Assembly (NCBI GenBank): GCA_949524905.1
Contig: CATINC010000013.1
Span: 124,001-188,000 of the forward strand
Reading direction: 5' to 3'
From: Opitutia bacterium UBA7350
GTDB taxonomy: Bacteria > Verrucomicrobiota > Verrucomicrobiia > Opitutales > Coraliomargaritaceae
Length of the DNA: 64,000 nt
Part shown: piece by piece, positions 55,040 to 63,537 of the stretch
Position numbering within the stretch: position 1 is the first letter of the stretch
How the letters are laid out: each line of letters opens with the position of its first letter
Position numbers and translations under genes: made by a program
The notes under the pieces: model-generated
What the model saw: only the letters and a program-made list of their open reading frames with translations
Databases searched by the model: none
What the model was told of the DNA's origin: nothing

Positions 55040-56872
55040 TTATTTCTTTCGGCGAGGTTTAGTGCGAGGACTTCCACCAGAACCTGATTTGGGACCACTG
55101 GCTGCCGGCAAGGGTTTGAGCGGTTCATCGGGGCGACTATTGGTGATTTTTTGCTGAACGATCGTGAGGATGTTTTGAACGGTCCAGTAAAGCACTAAAC
55201 CGGAGGAGAATCCATATAGGAAAATTAGAAAAACAAAGGGAAGAAATTTAAAAATCTTCTGCTGCATGGGATCAGCGGTCGGGTTCACCGGCATCATACT
55301 CATCTGCAAGTACATCGTGATCGCCATCAGAAGAGGCAGTAAATTAATAGGAAAACCTGCAACCTCTGTAATCGTATCTGGCTGGGAAAGGTCGCTGATC
55401 CAGAGGAAGGACTCGTAACGGAGCTCGGAGGCGGTCCGAAGCATATAAAAGAGCCCCAGGAAAATCGGCATCTGAATAATCAGCGGCAAGCAGCCAGCAA
55501 CCGGATTGACCTGATGCTCACGGAAGAGCTTGATGGTCTCCTGCTGCATTTTTTGCGGGTTGTCCTTATACTTTTCTTTAAGCTCCGCCATGGGACCCTG
55601 AATGCTGGCCATACGTTTCTGTGAGCGGCTTGCTTTGGCGGTAAGTGGCCAGAAAATAAGCTTGATGCAGATGGTCATGATGACAATCGAGAGTCCCCAG
55701 TTGGGAACCACCGCATGGATGGCATACATGAAAGCGAGTAGCAGTTTACTTATGAAGCTCAGGAAGCCGAACTGCATTACAAGGTCCTTATCATCACCTA
55801 AAGATTGGAGACGTTTGAATTCCTTCGGGCCAATAAAATATTCAAATTCGAACGATTTCGAATCTCCAGCCGGAACAATTCCAAAAGCGTAGGCTGCACT
55901 ACCCGTTATGCCCGTTCGGGAAGCGACCTCGCCAGCAATTGCAGGTGCTCTTCTAACCTTGTTTATGACCAGGCTTTCCGCATCCGCTGTGCGAGAAGAG
56001 AGGATGCCTGCAAAAAATTGATTTTTAACCGAGGTCCATTTAAGCGGCATGCCGGTATCGATGATGATTTGTTCCTTTGGCGCAGAGGCACCCACTCCAA
56101 GAAAGCCGTTACTCCCAGTGAGCTTAGAGACCGCAACAAATTTTGCCTTATCTCCATTAAAGTGACTTACATTGATATAGCTCTGCTGCATCTTGCTCTC
56201 CGAAAGGGGACGCATAGTACCTAGATTAAGAAAGAGGTTAGAAAACGCCTTAGCTTTTGCACCTAGGTTTTCAAAACGGGTAGTGTGCTCGACTATGTAG
56301 GGATCTCGCTCGTTTTCAGTCGCGGAAGTCAGCGAGTAAGTGCGATAGATGCGAAGCTCTGGACCGGCCTGCAATACAAAGGTGATGCTCTCAGCCGAAT
56401 GCGAGTCAACCGCATAGGCCATATCAAATTCGCGGATGGAGCCGTCGCTATTGGGCAATCCCAAACCAAGTGCGGGCAAATACCCATTTTCATTAAAAAC
56501 GTAATCGTCTCGCCCATCATTTTTTGTCTGAAGGAAATTCACCCGACGGATGCCGCCACCACGGTTGGTGAATTCAACTTCGATATGGTCATTGGCAATG
56601 GCAATGATGGATTCGGGGACGGTGGCTTCAATAGTAGCGGGAGCTTCTTCTGCCTCGAGGTCGCGGGTCATCAAATCCAGCATTTGTGCAGCCTCAGAAT
56701 CTTCATCTGATGGAGCTTGCTGGTTGGTAGCATCTGTCGCACGATTATCAGCTGCCTGAACAGTGGTTTCGATTTGAGGGCTTAGGACACGTACCTGGGT
56801 GGATTGCCAAAACATGACAAAAAATCCGCCGCCGAGTAATAGTAGGCCAATGATTGTATTTTTCTTATCCAT
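55040..56872 (-). CDS. yidC: Membrane protein insertase YidC
   Basis: YidC inserts and folds inner-membrane proteins. The 610-residue Gram-negative form has an N-terminal anchor helix (about 8-24), a periplasmic beta-sandwich domain (about 95-360) and the conserved five-helix core, with QMPIFLGLFYMLRTASELR near 468-486. The cytoplasmic tail is basic and rich in Pro, Ser and Gly, ending KPRRKK, which could contact ribosomes. It is the last gene of the rpmH-rnpA-yidD-yidC operon and overlaps yidD by eight bases. Confidence 0.96.
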   Translation of the reverse strand: MDKKNTIIGLLLLGGGFFVMFWQSTQVRVLSPQIETTVQAADNRATDATNQQAPSDEDSEAAQMLDLMTRDLEAEEAPATIEATVPESIIAIANDHIEVEFTNRGGGIRRVNFLQTKNDGRDDYVFNENGYLPALGLGLPNSDGSIREFDMAYAVDSHSAESITFVLQAGPELRIYRTYSLTSATENERDPYIVEHTTRFENLGAKAKAFSNLFLNLGTMRPLSESKMQQSYINVSHFNGDKAKFVAVSKLTGSNGFLGVGASAPKEQIIIDTGMPLKWTSVKNQFFAGILSSRTADAESLVINKVRRAPAIAGEVASRTGITGSAAYAFGIVPAGDSKSFEFEYFIGPKEFKRLQSLGDDKDLVMQFGFLSFISKLLLAFMYAIHAVVPNWGLSIVIMTICIKLIFWPLTAKASRSQKRMASIQGPMAELKEKYKDNPQKMQQETIKLFREHQVNPVAGCLPLIIQMPIFLGLFYMLRTASELRYESFLWISDLSQPDTITEVAGFPINLLPLLMAITMYLQMSMMPVNPTADPMQQKIFKFLPFVFLIFLYGFSSGLVLYWTVQNILTIVQQKITNSRPDEPLKPLPAASGPKSGSGGSPRTKPRRKK

Positions 56873-57176
56873 TAGAGCAGTTGTTGAAATGTGTTGTAGG
56901 CTTGTCCGAGGAGCAAGTTTTCAAATCGGGCACAGGGTCCAGGCCACCGGGATGCCAGGGATGACAGCGTAAGATCCGGCCAAGTGCGAGCACCAAACCT
57001 CGCAGAAAACCATGTTTAAGGAAGGCATCACGAGCATAGGCGGAACAGGTGGGATGAAAGCGACAACCACAGGAAGACCCGAAGAGAAAATATTTAAGAG
57101 GAGAGAGCAAAATTTGATATCCTCGCACTAAAAGCGCTGCGACAAGCGCCACTAAAGAGACATGGGCTTTTTTCAT
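56865..57176 (-). CDS. yidD: Membrane protein insertion efficiency factor YidD
   Basis: The 103-residue protein has an N-terminal amphipathic/hydrophobic segment with RGYQILLSPLKYFLFG, the family Cys pattern (CGCRFHPTCSAYARDAF near 36-52) and the HPWHPGGLDPVP motif near 74-85. YidD assists membrane insertion together with YidC. It overlaps rnpA by four bases and yidC by eight, in the classical operon order. Confidence 0.95.
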   Translation of the reverse strand: MKKAHVSLVALVAALLVRGYQILLSPLKYFLFGSSCGCRFHPTCSAYARDAFLKHGFLRGLVLALGRILRCHPWHPGGLDPVPDLKTCSSDKPTTHFNNCSNG

Positions 57177-57520
57177 AATGCGGAAATCTTTTGGTAAATC
57201 TCACAAAAGCCTGTTTCTAGCTCCTTGTAGGAGACCGAGTCAAAGTTGGATCGCAGGACAATCACCAGATCAATTCCATTCGGGAAGTTGGCTCGATATT
57301 TACGAAAAAGATTACGAATGAGGCGCTTACCGTAATTGCGCTTAACCGCATTACCCACGCGACGACTGGCGATGACACCGAGGCGAGGTGCTTGCTCTGC
57401 GGAATTTTCATGCTGCAAGTACTGAGCAATGAAAAATCCGCAGTGGATTCGAGTACCTTGACTGCGGACTTGCTGAAAATCGCTTCGTGAGCGCAGTCGT
57501 TGATGCGCTGGGACAGCCAT
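57173..57520 (-). CDS. rnpA: Ribonuclease P protein component
   Basis: RnpA binds the RNase P RNA and helps cut the 5' leader from pre-tRNAs. The 115-residue protein has the family marks RSRSDFQQVRSQG near 10-22 and the RNR-like helix VKRNYGKRLIRNLFRKYR near 58-75, with GIDLVIVLR after it. It begins 20 bases after the rpmH stop. Confidence 0.95.
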   Translation of the reverse strand: MAVPAHQRLRSRSDFQQVRSQGTRIHCGFFIAQYLQHENSAEQAPRLGVIASRRVGNAVKRNYGKRLIRNLFRKYRANFPNGIDLVIVLRSNFDSVSYKELETGFCEIYQKISAL

Positions 57521-57774: not shown

Positions 57775-60741
57775 CTATGCATTTGTGATCCATAAAGCGG
57801 CATAAGGCGGGATCTCAACTGTCTCACAATCGGCTCCGTAAGACGCCCCCGTAAGAAGATCACGCCAATTATCGGTGCTGATGAGGTTGAGTTCTCGCAA
57901 GGCCACTGTTTGGGTTTGGTTTGAAATATTATTGATCGCAAAAATGCTTTGGTGACGGTCACTACTTTCCCGCCAAAAGGCAAAGAGCTGATCCCCAAGG
58001 TGAAGGGTGAGCTGAGTAGCATTAGGATGAAAGGCAATCTGTTGCTTGCGGATGGCAATCCGCCGTTTGAGCTCATAAAAAATTTGGTGATGGTGACTCT
58101 CAGAATCATCTAATTTCTCCATTAGACGGTCGAGTTCCCACTGGTGGCGGTTGATAGAACGGGCATTTCCGGTGGCCGCCTGCCGTTCGGTATCATTTTC
58201 GGTAGCCAGCATGCTGTGGATATAGAAAGCAGGGATTCCCTCGAGTGCTAGAAGGATGGTATGTGCGCACAAGTAACGCTCAACCTGCAGGCGATCCGGT
58301 CCCTCGGAAATAGTACCCCGCAAGGCATCAAAAAGGCTGATGTTGACTTCATAAGGAGTCTCTCGCCCATCGGGATTAGTGCGTTTTGAAATTGTTCCGC
58401 CATAGGATTTGAGGGTCTCCAGTAGTGCGGTTTGCTCTGTATCAGAAATAAGGCCCTCCAGCGGACGCACTCCGATCCCATCATGCGAGGCGATAAAATT
58501 CAGGTAACTGCGCCCTCGCCGGGCGGGCGGCATCGACATCATCCAACTCTTCAGGAGCGTCGAGTCGCCTTTAAGAAGAGCATGAATGAGTAAAGGTGGG
58601 AGCGAGAAATTATAAATCAAATGCGCCTCGTTGTCGTTACCGAAATAGCTGAGGTTTTCGCGGTTGGGCACATTGGTCTCGGTGATCAAGACCGCTTCGG
58701 GTTCGAGGTTTTCTAAAATCAGACGAAGTAGTTTAATAATTTCGTGGGTCTCTTTTAAGTGCACACAACTGCTTCCGGAGCGTTTCCATAGAAAGGCGAT
58801 CGCATCGAGACGAAAATATTTTATACCTTTTTCGACTAAAAATTTAAGAATGCTAATGGCTTCATAGAGCACTTCTGGGTTCGCGAAGTTTAAGTCTATT
58901 TGGTCATGACTAAAGGTGCACCAAAGGTTTTTTGTCCCATTAATTGTTTCTACTGTACGCAGCAAGGGACTGGATCGCGGGCGCACCACCGAGTCCGTAT
59001 TGAAATCCGCCTCAACTTCAAAAAAGTAGCCCGTGCCAGGAGATTTACCGGCGCAATAATTTTTAAACCATTCAGATTCTTGGGAGCAGTGATTGATTAC
59101 CAAATCTGCCATTGTTTCAAATTGAGCATTAAATTCCTCAAAGGCTTCCCAGTTACCCAGTTCGGGATTAACTTTCAGATAATCAATCACCGAGAATCCA
59201 TCATCCGAACTATATGGGAAAAACGGCAAAACATGAAGCGTGGTGATGGTCTGGCTTAGGTGCTTGCTCGTAAATCGATTGAGTGTTTTAAGCGGCGCCT
59301 CCCCTTCGCGAGTGATGGTATCGCCGTAGGTGATTAAAATGGTATCGGCCTCTGTCCATTTATTTTGCCCGCGCGAAAGGACGGGATTTTGATGCCCAAA
59401 ACTAGCGATGCTGAGTATTTTATCGGTTATGGCGGCGCAATCCCCGCTTGGATATAACTCATTGAGATGCTGTTGGATTGCTTGACGAATCTTACTGCCC
59501 TTAGCGGCGGGTTGCTTTTTGGGTTTAAAAGTATCCATATCCTCTTCCACTGCCTCGATGAGTTGATTTTCGATATCAGGCACCGCCGAGCGAACGCGCT
59601 TCCAACTCGGAATAAAGGGCGTGTCGGTCGGTTGATTGAGAAATTGATCCCCCGCGCGAATGATACTCTCAGAAAATACCTCCACCGATTGCATTTCCTT
59701 ATGCCGGTCATAGCTGAGTCCGTTCATGGTCGCATCATTTTCATAACTATCAATGAGATCAAGCGCAGTGCGGTAATAGGCAGCCTTAATGGTACGAATC
59801 TGCGCACTGGAAAAGACTTCGCCATAAGTAGCGAGCTTGCGGAAAAGCGACTTCGAAATATCCGTGCTCATTTTTGCGAGGCCGCGATCGGCATCGCTCG
59901 CAGAGAGATCTTGGTGTTTGTGGTCGTAGAAATTTGCTATATCCACTTGGCAAATTTTATTCTTCTGATGGTTGCGATACATTTCAGACAGCATACCCAT
60001 CTCTAAACCCCAATCCGAAGGAATGCGGATGTCCGCCACGATGTCGCGGTTAAAGGCAAATTCACCCGAAAGGGCATATTTAAAACTATCCATGTATTCG
60101 AGATAGTCGTTTTCGCCGCAAATTTTCTTAAGAGCGAGGAGCAAGGGGGTAATTAGCAAACGACAAACACGACCATTCATGCGGTTCTCGGCAATCCTTG
60201 AGTAATAACCCTTGCTGTAGCTGAAATTAAGACTGGGATTGAGCACCGGGTAAATAAGACGGGTGAGCATCTCGCGATTGTAGGTGACGATGTCGCAATC
60301 GTGAATCGCAATGACCTGAGAGCGTTTACGGGCGAGCATATAACCGAGGAGATACCAAACATTGCGGCCTTTGCCTTCGTTCATAGGCGCTAGGTTAAAG
60401 GATTGCAGGGTAGCATCAATCGCTCGCAAACGAGGCCCTCCATTCCAGAGAATTTTGACTTCTCCAGGTAACCGACCAAAAAATTCAAGGGCATAGCGGT
60501 ATTGATTTTCGTCTGCTTGATCCAAACCAATCACAATTTCTTCGAGGTAATCCATTTCGCTGAGAACATCGATTATGTTTGGAAGGGCTGCTCCTTCCAA
60601 TTCTGAGTAAAGCGAGGGCAAGATGAGCCCAACCGGTTTTTCTCGCGAAAGTTTAAAAACTTCCTGCTCAAGGTTTTCTGGCGAGCGGGTCGCCAGATTA
60701 TGGAAATTGGTAATTGTTCCGCTTTGATGAAAGTCACTCAT
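57775..60741 (-). CDS. Bifunctional glucosyl-3-phosphoglycerate synthase / GH13_18 glucosylglycerate phosphorylase-like fusion
   Basis: The 988-residue protein joins two enzymes. Residues 1 to about 400 resemble the 400-residue type of glucosyl-3-phosphoglycerate synthase: a GT-A fold with the metal motif HDCDI (D148, D150), KGYYSRIAENRMNGRVCRLL and ALSGEFAFNRD. It should transfer glucose from an NDP-sugar to 3-phosphoglycerate. After a Lys/Pro linker (about 403-417), residues 420-988 form a GH13 subfamily-18 phosphorylase with nucleophile D646 (FRLDA), acid/base E688 (ITETNVPN) and D754 (ASHDGIG). IKYFRLDAIAFLWKRSGSSC resembles glucosylglycerate phosphorylase/YcjM-type enzymes more than classical sucrose phosphorylase. 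It is the last gene of a three-gene operon. Confidence 0.85.
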   Translation of the reverse strand: MSDFHQSGTITNFHNLATRSPENLEQEVFKLSREKPVGLILPSLYSELEGAALPNIIDVLSEMDYLEEIVIGLDQADENQYRYALEFFGRLPGEVKILWNGGPRLRAIDATLQSFNLAPMNEGKGRNVWYLLGYMLARKRSQVIAIHDCDIVTYNREMLTRLIYPVLNPSLNFSYSKGYYSRIAENRMNGRVCRLLITPLLLALKKICGENDYLEYMDSFKYALSGEFAFNRDIVADIRIPSDWGLEMGMLSEMYRNHQKNKICQVDIANFYDHKHQDLSASDADRGLAKMSTDISKSLFRKLATYGEVFSSAQIRTIKAAYYRTALDLIDSYENDATMNGLSYDRHKEMQSVEVFSESIIRAGDQFLNQPTDTPFIPSWKRVRSAVPDIENQLIEAVEEDMDTFKPKKQPAAKGSKIRQAIQQHLNELYPSGDCAAITDKILSIASFGHQNPVLSRGQNKWTEADTILITYGDTITREGEAPLKTLNRFTSKHLSQTITTLHVLPFFPYSSDDGFSVIDYLKVNPELGNWEAFEEFNAQFETMADLVINHCSQESEWFKNYCAGKSPGTGYFFEVEADFNTDSVVRPRSSPLLRTVETINGTKNLWCTFSHDQIDLNFANPEVLYEAISILKFLVEKGIKYFRLDAIAFLWKRSGSSCVHLKETHEIIKLLRLILENLEPEAVLITETNVPNRENLSYFGNDNEAHLIYNFSLPPLLIHALLKGDSTLLKSWMMSMPPARRGRSYLNFIASHDGIGVRPLEGLISDTEQTALLETLKSYGGTISKRTNPDGRETPYEVNISLFDALRGTISEGPDRLQVERYLCAHTILLALEGIPAFYIHSMLATENDTERQAATGNARSINRHQWELDRLMEKLDDSESHHHQIFYELKRRIAIRKQQIAFHPNATQLTLHLGDQLFAFWRESSDRHQSIFAINNISNQTQTVALRELNLISTDNWRDLLTGASYGADCETVEIPPYAALWITNA

Positions 60742-60750
60742 GGCAGTCGT

Positions 60751-61587
60751 TTAAGTAGTAGCGATGGATAGTTGGGTGGTAAGAAATTCTAAAACCGAGG
60801 CACCCCAGCCCACTGGGCCCGGAGCCTCCGCTGTGCAATAATCAGCGCGTTTTAATTGGAGCGTTCCGCGCTTAGGATTTGGGATGACAATTGCGGCATC
60901 GGCAACTTCCAACATGGAGCTGTCATTTGGGCTGTCTCCAATCGCAAGGGTTTTCCATTTTAAATCGGGATTACGGGCTTGGTAACACTGGAGCACGCGT
61001 GTGAGCGCAGAACCCTTACTTTGCCCTGCCGGCATGAGATGCTGAAAATGCCCGCCACGAACCAGGACAATTCCCTCCTTTGCCAAGGCTTCACTAAAAG
61101 CCTCTAAATCCTTGGATGAACTTTCCCAAAGAATAGGCTCGGTACTGTGACGATCCAGTGCCGCCTCTGCTTGTTTGCGATTTAGATGCAATAACCCCAT
61201 TAACTGCTCGCTTTTCATTTCAGAAAAACCCTTGTAACTATAGCGGTGCTTACCGCGCAGGTTTTCGGCAATACTCAAGAGTTCACTTCGCTTCATTCCG
61301 CAGGATTTTACTTGATAGCTTCCTGCCGCATATCCTCCGCCTTCCACGAGATCTGCCTCTTGTGGGTAAGCCAATACCGTCCCATTTTCTGCGATAATAG
61401 GTGCCAGAGGATCCATGACTGCCGCCAACGGTAACATCTCAGCCAGGGTCTTGCTCGAATTCAGAATCAAAGGAACCCCTAGAGCCCGAATCGCTTCTAA
61501 GGCCGGCTCGGCTTCACGCCATTGATACGATGCATCCAGCAAGGAGGCATCCAAATCCGTGTAAATCAACCATGCCGTCTTAGCCAT
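60751..61587 (-). CDS. Glucosyl-/mannosyl-3-phosphoglycerate phosphatase (HAD-IIB)
   Basis: The 278-residue protein is a HAD phosphatase of the MpgP/GpgP type. The nucleophile motif is YTDLDASLLD (D11, D13), motif II is LNSSKTLAEM near 41-50, ENGTVLAYP sits near 67-75, and motif IV is AIGDSPNDSSML near 217-228. These enzymes remove phosphate from glucosyl- or mannosyl-3-phosphoglycerate. Next to a GpgS domain, the glucosyl substrate is the natural reading. It overlaps the kinase gene by eight bases and precedes the fusion gene by nine. Confidence 0.85.
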   Translation of the reverse strand: MAKTAWLIYTDLDASLLDASYQWREAEPALEAIRALGVPLILNSSKTLAEMLPLAAVMDPLAPIIAENGTVLAYPQEADLVEGGGYAAGSYQVKSCGMKRSELLSIAENLRGKHRYSYKGFSEMKSEQLMGLLHLNRKQAEAALDRHSTEPILWESSSKDLEAFSEALAKEGIVLVRGGHFQHLMPAGQSKGSALTRVLQCYQARNPDLKWKTLAIGDSPNDSSMLEVADAAIVIPNPKRGTLQLKRADYCTAEAPGPVGWGASVLEFLTTQLSIATT

Positions 61588-62479
61588 GATCCTGAAGCAC
61601 CAGACGCTCTGCCTCGTGCTGTTCGTTTAAGTCAATTCGTGCATCCACTCGGGTCGGCATTTCTGCTAACATCCATCGAGTCAAGCGCTCATAATGCATG
61701 ATAAAGCGCTCCACCTGAGCATCATTCATCAAACCTTCATACTCTGCCCCAGAAGCCGCCAGATGCTCACGCAGTTTACGCTCCTGCTTTTTTCGCCATT
61801 GAAGAATGCATTCAAAGCCCGGTGCTTTTAGCAGCACCCGCTTAGGGAAAAGCGAAAAAAAAATTTGATACTCCATGCTTAATTGTTGATTCACGTATTG
61901 GCGCCACACTCCATCTGCATCTAAATCTCGCTCCAGAACATTGAGAGGTTCTGCAAGTGAGGCTTCCGGTTCCGGCACAGCACCCACACACCAACCTTCC
62001 AGAATCAGGATATCCACCGGTGCGGTGATGCGATGCCACAAGGCGCGCGGCGCACGGTCATCATTTTCTTTTTTAAAAATAGGGGAATGCAGTGTTGTAG
62101 GTTCATTTTTCAAACAGTGGTTTGCAACATCCATGCCAATCCCAATGTCATGTGTCCCCGGCACACCCCGTGTCGCCAACAAAGGATGTACCCGATTACC
62201 TAAATCTTCACGCTCTGCCCGGGTTAGATAAAGGTCATCCAGCGAAAGCACAAAGACTTTCAGCCCGTGATAACGGCTCAAATAATCACTTAAAAATGCC
62301 GCCAAGGTCGATTTTCCAGTCCCCTGCCCACCATTCAAGGCCAAACCCAGCGATCCCCCGGCAGCACGCTGCCAAACCGCCACCTGCTCCGCAAGTGGCT
62401 CATAAGCCTCTCGCACGACCGACTTAAAAGATTCCGGCAAACGATGGGACTTAATAAAATCGGGGACGAGGGCATTCAT
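61580..62479 (-). CDS. P-loop kinase of the D-glycerate 3-kinase (GLYK) type
   Basis: The 299-residue protein has a Walker A loop NGGQGTGKST near 49-58, then LSLDDLYLTRAERE near 79-92 and RGVPGTHDIGIG near 104-115, as in plant and yeast GLYK-type kinases related to phosphoribulokinase. LEGWCVGAVPEPEASL near 160-175 matches the family's LEGWxxG element. It would phosphorylate glycerate to 3-phosphoglycerate. It is the first gene of the glucosylglycerate operon. The substrate is inferred from family and context. Confidence 0.8.
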   Translation of the reverse strand: MNALVPDFIKSHRLPESFKSVVREAYEPLAEQVAVWQRAAGGSLGLALNGGQGTGKSTLAAFLSDYLSRYHGLKVFVLSLDDLYLTRAEREDLGNRVHPLLATRGVPGTHDIGIGMDVANHCLKNEPTTLHSPIFKKENDDRAPRALWHRITAPVDILILEGWCVGAVPEPEASLAEPLNVLERDLDADGVWRQYVNQQLSMEYQIFFSLFPKRVLLKAPGFECILQWRKKQERKLREHLAASGAEYEGLMNDAQVERFIMHYERLTRWMLAEMPTRVDARIDLNEQHEAERLVLQDHG

Positions 62480-62527: not shown

Positions 62528-62619
62528 CTCCTTTGCCTATAAATGCCGAATGGTAATCAAATTTAATTTAGTTGCGCGTGCTAAAAAATTTTGCTGCAGT
62601 ACCTGTGGTAACTCAAAAG

Positions 62620-63537
62620 ATGGATATTTCTACACCTAAAAAAGATCAAGATACTAATAATTATCCTAACTTTATTTCGGAAAATGTCCTCGAAGGGCGT
62701 TACTATGTTCACGAGCCTGTTGCGCAAGGAGAAAGCGGATTTCGAGTCATTTGTGCAGGCATGGAGGTCTGTCAAAAGACCTACCGTATCGACCGTAAAA
62801 ACTTTGATTACTATGCGATCGAATTCATCGCAAATGGAAATTGCAAACTTGAATTAGACGACAAGAAGTCTGAGATCGGTTCGGGTTGTTGCTTTATCTA
62901 TGGACCCAATACACCGCATAAAATCTTCTCCGTGGGCGACAAGCCACTAAAGAAATACTTTGTGGATTTTGATGGCTCTAATGCGCTGGCTCGGATGCAT
63001 GAATTTAATCTTAAGGAAGGTGATATGTTCTATGTAGGAAACCAGCGCTGGGTGCAGGATATTTTTGAACAATTCATCGAAAGCTCAGAACTCAAAAGAA
63101 GTACCACTCGTGCATTAGTCGAACAACTTCTAAAACTACTTTTTGTTCGCTTACTGATTGATCGAGAAACACCGGGTAAACTTCAGTCCTTCTCAAACGA
63201 GACTTTCACTCGTTGCTGGCGCTTCATTTATGATAATTATCTGGATATCAATACGGTTGCCGAAATTTCAGATGCCTGTGCGGTGAACAAAGTTTATATC
63301 GCACGTCTTTTCAAACGCTACGCCAACGAGACCCCATTTCAGCTGCTTACTCGCCTAAAAATCAAACACGCTGCCAAGCTAATTTTAGGTGAAAACCTAC
63401 CGGTTAAACAGGTTGGAGCTTTTGTCGGCTATAGCGATCCTTATCACTTCTCAAGAGTTTTCAAACGGGTCATTGGAGTATCACCTAAACATTACGCCTA
63501 TCTAATCAAACGCGGCGCCATTCCCCTCCCCAAATGA
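62620..63537 (+). CDS. AraC-family transcriptional regulator
   Basis: The 305-residue protein has an N-terminal cupin-like sensing domain (about 25-150; ELDDKKSEIGSGCCFIYGPN, PHKIF) and a C-terminal pair of helix-turn-helix motifs. The first is around 210-245 (INTVAEISDACAVNKVYIARLFKRYAN). The second is around 260-300 (VKQVGAFVGYSDPYHFSRVFKR), ending in GVSPKHY. AraC regulators of this form usually bind a sugar or other small ligand. It diverges from the glucosylglycerate operon and may control it; the dehydrogenase gene to the right is an alternative target. Upstream TTG (62572) and GTG (62578) codons are less likely starts. Confidence 0.88.
   Translation: MDISTPKKDQDTNNYPNFISENVLEGRYYVHEPVAQGESGFRVICAGMEVCQKTYRIDRKNFDYYAIEFIANGNCKLELDDKKSEIGSGCCFIYGPNTPHKIFSVGDKPLKKYFVDFDGSNALARMHEFNLKEGDMFYVGNQRWVQDIFEQFIESSELKRSTTRALVEQLLKLLFVRLLIDRETPGKLQSFSNETFTRCWRFIYDNYLDINTVAEISDACAVNKVYIARLFKRYANETPFQLLTRLKIKHAAKLILGENLPVKQVGAFVGYSDPYHFSRVFKRVIGVSPKHYAYLIKRGAIPLPK

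Follow-up and report, generated by a model that had tools for sequence, protein, structure and literature searches.

The 64,000-nucleotide stretch analysed here (the window; positions 124,001 to 188,000 of contig CATINC010000013.1 from Opitutia bacterium UBA7350, a member of the Verrucomicrobiota) carries, toward its end, three packed minus-strand genes for a kinase, a phosphatase and a 988-residue fusion of a glucosyl-3-phosphoglycerate synthase (GpgS)-like domain with a predicted glucosylglycerate phosphorylase (GGaP) domain. The genome measures 1.67 Mb with an estimated completeness of 99.97%, and its closest named relatives are uncultured Verrucomicrobia metagenome-assembled genomes (MAGs). 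A sequence-only reading had proposed that this one locus holds a closed set of four activities for the synthesis, breakdown and salvage of glucosylglycerate (GG), with the opposing enzymes within one polypeptide. The enzyme assignments reported below support the first proposal and the single 988-residue frame bears out the second: the locus is probably a GG synthesis-and-recycling cassette, with four activities on three genes and a fusion that arose by stop-codon loss. A switchable osmolyte or carbon store, the role suggested by the same reading, is a possibility. The features of the locus are the following (aa, amino acids; pLDDT, predicted local distance difference test; PDB, Protein Data Bank; MPGP, mannosyl-3-phosphoglycerate phosphatase):

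61580..62479, minus strand: glycerate-kinase-like protein (GLYK type), 299 aa, with Walker A motif GGQGTGKST; best solved relatives are D-glycerate 3-kinases.
60751..61587, minus strand: GpgP-type HAD-IIB phosphatase, 278 aa; TIGR01486 match and MPGP relatives in the PDB.
57775..60741, minus strand: fusion gene, GpgS-like synthase plus predicted GGaP, 988 aa, in a single open frame.
59530..60741, minus strand: GpgS-like GT-A domain, residues 1-404; full-length NF040724 match and GpgS fold.
60289..60303, minus strand: HDCDI, residues 147-151, the DxD metal and nucleotide motif; the same in 28 fusions.
59494..59529, minus strand: linker, residues 405-416; low pLDDT, least conserved, placed where unfused relatives have their stop/start junction.
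57778..59493, minus strand: predicted GH13_18 glucosylglycerate phosphorylase domain, residues 417-988; GH13 phosphorylase matches, fingerprints and tree.
58804..58806, minus strand: nucleophile D646, in FRLDA; kept in all fusions and E. coli YcjM.
58672..58683, minus strand: TETN, residues 687-690, including the acid/base E688, a GGaP fingerprint; in all 28 fusions and YcjM.
58480..58482, minus strand: third triad residue D754, in ASHDG.
58348..58350, minus strand: loop-A Glu798, a GGaP fingerprint (Gln in sucrose phosphorylases); PYE in 28 fusions and YcjM.

The layout given by the sequence-only reading proved exact, including the 8-base overlap of the kinase and phosphatase genes and the 9-base gap before the fusion gene, and the HDCDI motif and the intact D646/E688/D754 triad stand where it had put them. 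It had also placed a linker near residues 403-417. Indeed, the structure model of the fusion comprises two ordered domains, joined there by a stretch with pLDDT below 50 at residues 409-414, and the linker is the least conserved stretch of the protein.

Matches of the fusion to PDB entries and NCBIfam families were far above chance. Residues 417-988 match GH13 phosphorylases, among which GGaP, EC 2.4.1.352, is diagnosed by a (T/S)ETN motif at the tip of beta strand 5 and by a loop-A Glu that replaces Gln (PMC7178133); both fingerprints are present in 28/28 fusions. The TETN motif, the loop-A Glu and the Asp/Glu/Asp triad are shared with YcjM, a GH13_18 GGaP which, however, is encoded by a stand-alone gene within a transport and sugar-oxidation operon. 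Loop A of the fusion reads ETPYEVN and does not fit the sucrose phosphorylase motif N(L/V)D(I/L/V)YQ (PMC7178133), whereas two sucrose phosphorylase candidates from the window's own order carry an LYQ or IYQ loop. The score against TIGR03852 was 181 bits, below the cut-off of 334. In a tree run without the outgroup rows L159 and L161, the phosphorylase domain grouped with YcjM and was split from the two candidates with a support of 100. A clustering with sucrose phosphorylases, which the sequence-only reading had named as a ground for abandoning its proposal, was thus not found, and the tree and loop A rule out a sucrose phosphorylase. Family and fingerprints together point to a glucosylglycerate phosphorylase.

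The synthase half matches the glucosyl-3-phosphoglycerate synthase profile NF040724 over its full length (residues 3-404, 375 bits). Its predicted structure has a pLDDT of 89, and a fold search of the PDB returned mycobacterial GpgS at the top, with a template modelling (TM) score on the target of up to 0.75. The M. tuberculosis enzyme uses a DxD pair, Lys114, Glu232, His258 and a GRV acceptor loop (PMC2581804), which correspond, as read from the profile alignment, to D148/D150, K124, E247, H276 and G190-R191; all of these, together with H147, are invariant in 32 homologues. The domain therefore has its fold and catalytic residues in common with the mycobacterial GT81 enzymes, but its identity to solved GpgS is only about 20%. 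The phosphatase scored 186.7 bits against TIGR01486, the MPGP subfamily, above the cut-off of 164.75. The kinase, in which the P-loop is present, has as its best solved relatives the D-glycerate 3-kinases 6ckg (3e-15) and 7xpc (3e-14).

A count of homologues with the same fusion found it as one uninterrupted frame in 28 of the 273 genomes of the order, all within the window's family. It was also found, in a phylum-wide sample, in families f29, f49 and f59, in MAGs named Puniceicoccaceae and BACL24, and in named records labelled Kiritimatiellaceae, Luteolibacter, Verrucomicrobiales and others. No fusion was seen outside the Verrucomicrobiota in the loci examined, for which the named list comprised the best 80. 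Deeply separated families have retained the fused form, and no reversal was seen in any complete fused copy. In other families of the order, the phosphorylase is unfused (L032-L036, L048-L050), with a distinct, distantly GpgS-like gene of about 330 aa a few kb off on the opposite strand; this is a second, separate arrangement of predicted glucosylglycerate genes.

Unfused neighbours suggest how the fusion came about. gpgS and ggaP lie side by side as separate genes in Gammaproteobacteria, SAR11, other Alphaproteobacteria, Marinimicrobia and Bacteroidota, and in many of these pairs both genes are in the same frame, ggaP starting 0 to about 15 codons past the gpgS stop (TAA-ATG in SAR11, TGA-ATG in Zhongshania), although the in-frame share is biased because the ranking of the named list favours in-frame pairs. 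The linker of the fused form sits exactly at this stop/start junction. In a tree built from both domains (83 rows), a single change accounts for the fused proteins; Luteolibacter L075 stands at the base of the fused group with a support of 83 (100 without L075), and the sister of the group is L143, an unfused pair of the same class (support 90). With one change on the tree and in-frame unfused pairs, a single stop-codon loss explains the data. We propose that the stop codon between adjacent, in-frame gpgS and ggaP was lost once, in an ancestor within the Verrucomicrobiota, and that about a dozen intergenic codons became a flexible linker while the catalytic machinery of both domains remained intact. 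Between the closest of the sequences compared, non-synonymous change was low in both domains and synonymous change was near saturation; by this measure both domains are under protein-level constraint. Within the 42-codon junction, four fused genes lack any in-frame start codon (a check that covered all but the last four loci), so a free GGaP cannot start at the junction in these genes, which rules out internal restart as a general rule. All together, these data establish the fusion, its motifs, its family placement, its conservation and its origin. In one Shewanella record (Shewanella sp. KJ10-1, L126 6234-7978), the phosphorylase gene seemingly lies in two frames, possibly owing to a frameshift.

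The surrounding cassette is widespread. The order kinase, phosphatase, synthase, phosphorylase is common to marine Gammaproteobacteria and Verrucomicrobiota, with the kinase downstream instead in two Marinimicrobia records, and clustering of neighbour genes identified the four-enzyme block as the only widely recurring block around these loci, with no conserved regulator or transporter beyond it. Within the block, the kinase and the phosphatase are themselves fused in Pseudoalteromonas, Methylophaga and families f49 and f59 of the Verrucomicrobiota. Well-supported branches force three changes, hence independent origins. The frames of Pseudoalteromonas and Methylophaga (L061, L084, L085, L103) are about 597 aa long, and their synthase and phosphorylase are separate. 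In f49 and f59, by contrast, both fusions occur (L148-L152, from G404, G434, G462, G482 and G447; kinase-phosphatase proteins of about 576-597 aa), so that the four activities reside in two proteins. Because neighbouring genes were fused, each of these bifunctional proteins has alternating, non-consecutive steps.

Other genes next to the cassette differ from locus to locus. In the window, the cassette lies directly upstream of an rnpA-yidD-yidC block (55040-57520, minus strand), and a divergent AraC-type regulator gene adjoins the kinase gene (62572-63537, plus strand). The latter had no counterpart beside the cassette in the other loci compared, where contig ends limit the view of the window's genus. 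Glucosylglycerate is a compatible solute without nitrogen. A nitrate-assimilation operon, made up of nirA, a gene for a ferredoxin-type subunit and nasA, follows the fusion in three genomes of the family, namely G079, G206 and G100 (L040 9775-15425; L041 10082-15750; L047 1424-7129), G100 holding only a remnant at a contig start; parts of the operon lie beside the fusion in three more family members, and NrtA-like or NasA-like genes occur near the cassette in a few Gammaproteobacteria. This neighbourhood is recurrent but not general, and it was not seen in the window itself; a link of the cassette to nitrogen is possible.

The salvage step varies within the family. In many fusion-bearing members the cassette-type kinase is missing not only next to the cassette but from the rest of the genome as well; most of these have a glycerate kinase of the unrelated family PF02595 at another place, whereas genomes with the cassette kinase are generally without PF02595 (the exception is one broken copy in G434). 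The third type of glycerate kinase, MOFRL (PF05161), was absent in 25/25 genomes tested. Three genomes have the fusion but neither the cassette kinase nor PF02595 (G124, G247 and G271, the last two less than 80% complete). Such a pattern is as expected of a non-homologous replacement of the glycerate kinase. It supports rather than decides this, because PF02595 is also present in family members without the cassette and because, in the window's own family, the genomes with the kinase are small.

One chain that both makes and breaks a metabolite is found in glutathionylspermidine synthetase/amidase; its chemistry and families are other than those of the present fusion, in which, moreover, the two activities are separated by a phosphatase step. 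Among osmolyte enzymes, the glucosylglycerol-phosphate phosphatase-synthase fusion GgpPS of Marinobacter and other bacteria, which adjoins a GH13_18 phosphorylase gene (PMC10873239), and the mannosyl-3-phosphoglycerate synthase-phosphatase fusion (NF011072) likewise lie in one chain. These proteins, however, join consecutive synthetic steps, whereas here a synthetic enzyme is joined to a degradative one. GGaP genes are known beside gpgS, gpgP and glycerate kinase genes (Franceus et al. 2017, via PMC7178133), and in Synechococcus PCC 7002 GPGS, GGAP and GPGP bear the consecutive locus tags A2021-A2023 (PMC10873239); the same activities thus occur together, but as separate proteins. A possible role of GGaP in regulating the GG pool has also been proposed in print (PMC7178133, PMC10873239). 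The cassette is therefore not new, and apparently the architecture alone is undescribed: as the sequence-only reading had supposed, no description of a synthase-phosphorylase fusion was found in the searchable literature, the original GGaP paper lying outside that search.

The four activities would form a cycle. The GpgS-like domain would join the glucose of nucleoside diphosphate (NDP)-glucose to 3-phosphoglycerate (step 1), and the HAD phosphatase would take off the phosphate to give GG (step 2). The GGaP domain would then convert GG and phosphate to glucose 1-phosphate and D-glycerate (step 3), and the GLYK-like kinase would return glycerate to phosphoglycerate (step 4). Direct channelling between the fused domains is unlikely: they perform steps 1 and 3, and because the phosphatase step falls between them, the fusion alone cannot channel. 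The likely outcome of the fusion would rather be a fixed 1:1 dose and a shared location of the first synthetic and the degradative enzymes, the GG level then being set by 3-phosphoglycerate, phosphate and NDP-glucose and not by relative expression.

Several points weigh against this interpretation. The 375 bits of the synthase domain lie below the curated NF040724 equivalog cut-off of 700; for this reason we call the domain GpgS-like only, and NDP-glucose as its donor is inferred. No curated family and no Pfam entry matches the kinase, whose hits to curated models are weak, general kinase matches that all fall under their cut-offs. In the window's genus, Met402 is preceded by a purine-rich stretch, and some free GGaP may be made there by internal initiation at this codon. 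Finally, the substrates, the role as an osmolyte and the effect on dosage are inferences.

A serious rival keeps the same enzymes but gives the fusion no functional meaning: a harmless loss of a single stop codon would have been inherited and passed around the phylum. One such loss is enough, the linker is poorly conserved and the fused domains are not sequential in the pathway, and we hold this neutral origin to be a substantial possibility, if somewhat short of an even chance. However, the retention of the fused form in distant families without reversal speaks against it, as do the kinase-phosphatase fusions, whose three independent origins within the same cassette suggest that linking such enzymes is tolerated or useful. 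It is unlikely, by comparison, that the phosphorylase runs in reverse in the cell, as a second synthetic route from glucose 1-phosphate and glycerate to GG. GGaP is reversible and has a high affinity for D-glycerate (PMC11009771), but the cassette kinase would remove glycerate. Cellular phosphate, moreover, generally favours breakdown. Still less probable is a pathway with this layout that makes mannosylglycerate or another glycosylglycerate. The phosphatase family takes its name from mannosyl-3-phosphoglycerate, and the synthase domain closely resembles Rubrobacter MpgS in structure, yet MpgS comes somewhat behind GpgS, the best fold match, and both the fingerprints of GGaP and the clustering with YcjM indicate alpha-glucosides. 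An assembly or sequencing artefact concealing a stop codon, which the sequence-only reading had feared near codons 400-420, has a negligible chance, since the frame is open there in 28 species of one family and in independent assemblies from other families.

If the locus is the GG cassette that we favour, the Verrucomicrobiota may be condensing the GG cycle into a physical unit, in which the bifunctional proteins of f49 and f59 would bind each other as a ring-like complex. This extension is speculative and rather improbable. Since the steps alternate between the two proteins (1 and 3, 2 and 4), each intermediate has to move from one protein to the other; if they do bind, phosphoglycerate, GG and glycerate would be kept in local circulation, and the cell could go from storing GG to releasing it, and back, without making new protein. 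The pair of enzymes may also serve for making GG. Close relatives still have the two genes unfused, so that natural fused and split forms can be compared to measure what the fusion does. The fusion bears on the question of how a futile cycle is avoided in cells that both synthesise and degrade GG: with both opposing activities on one chain their dosage would be constant, and the question would shift to allosteric or substrate control.

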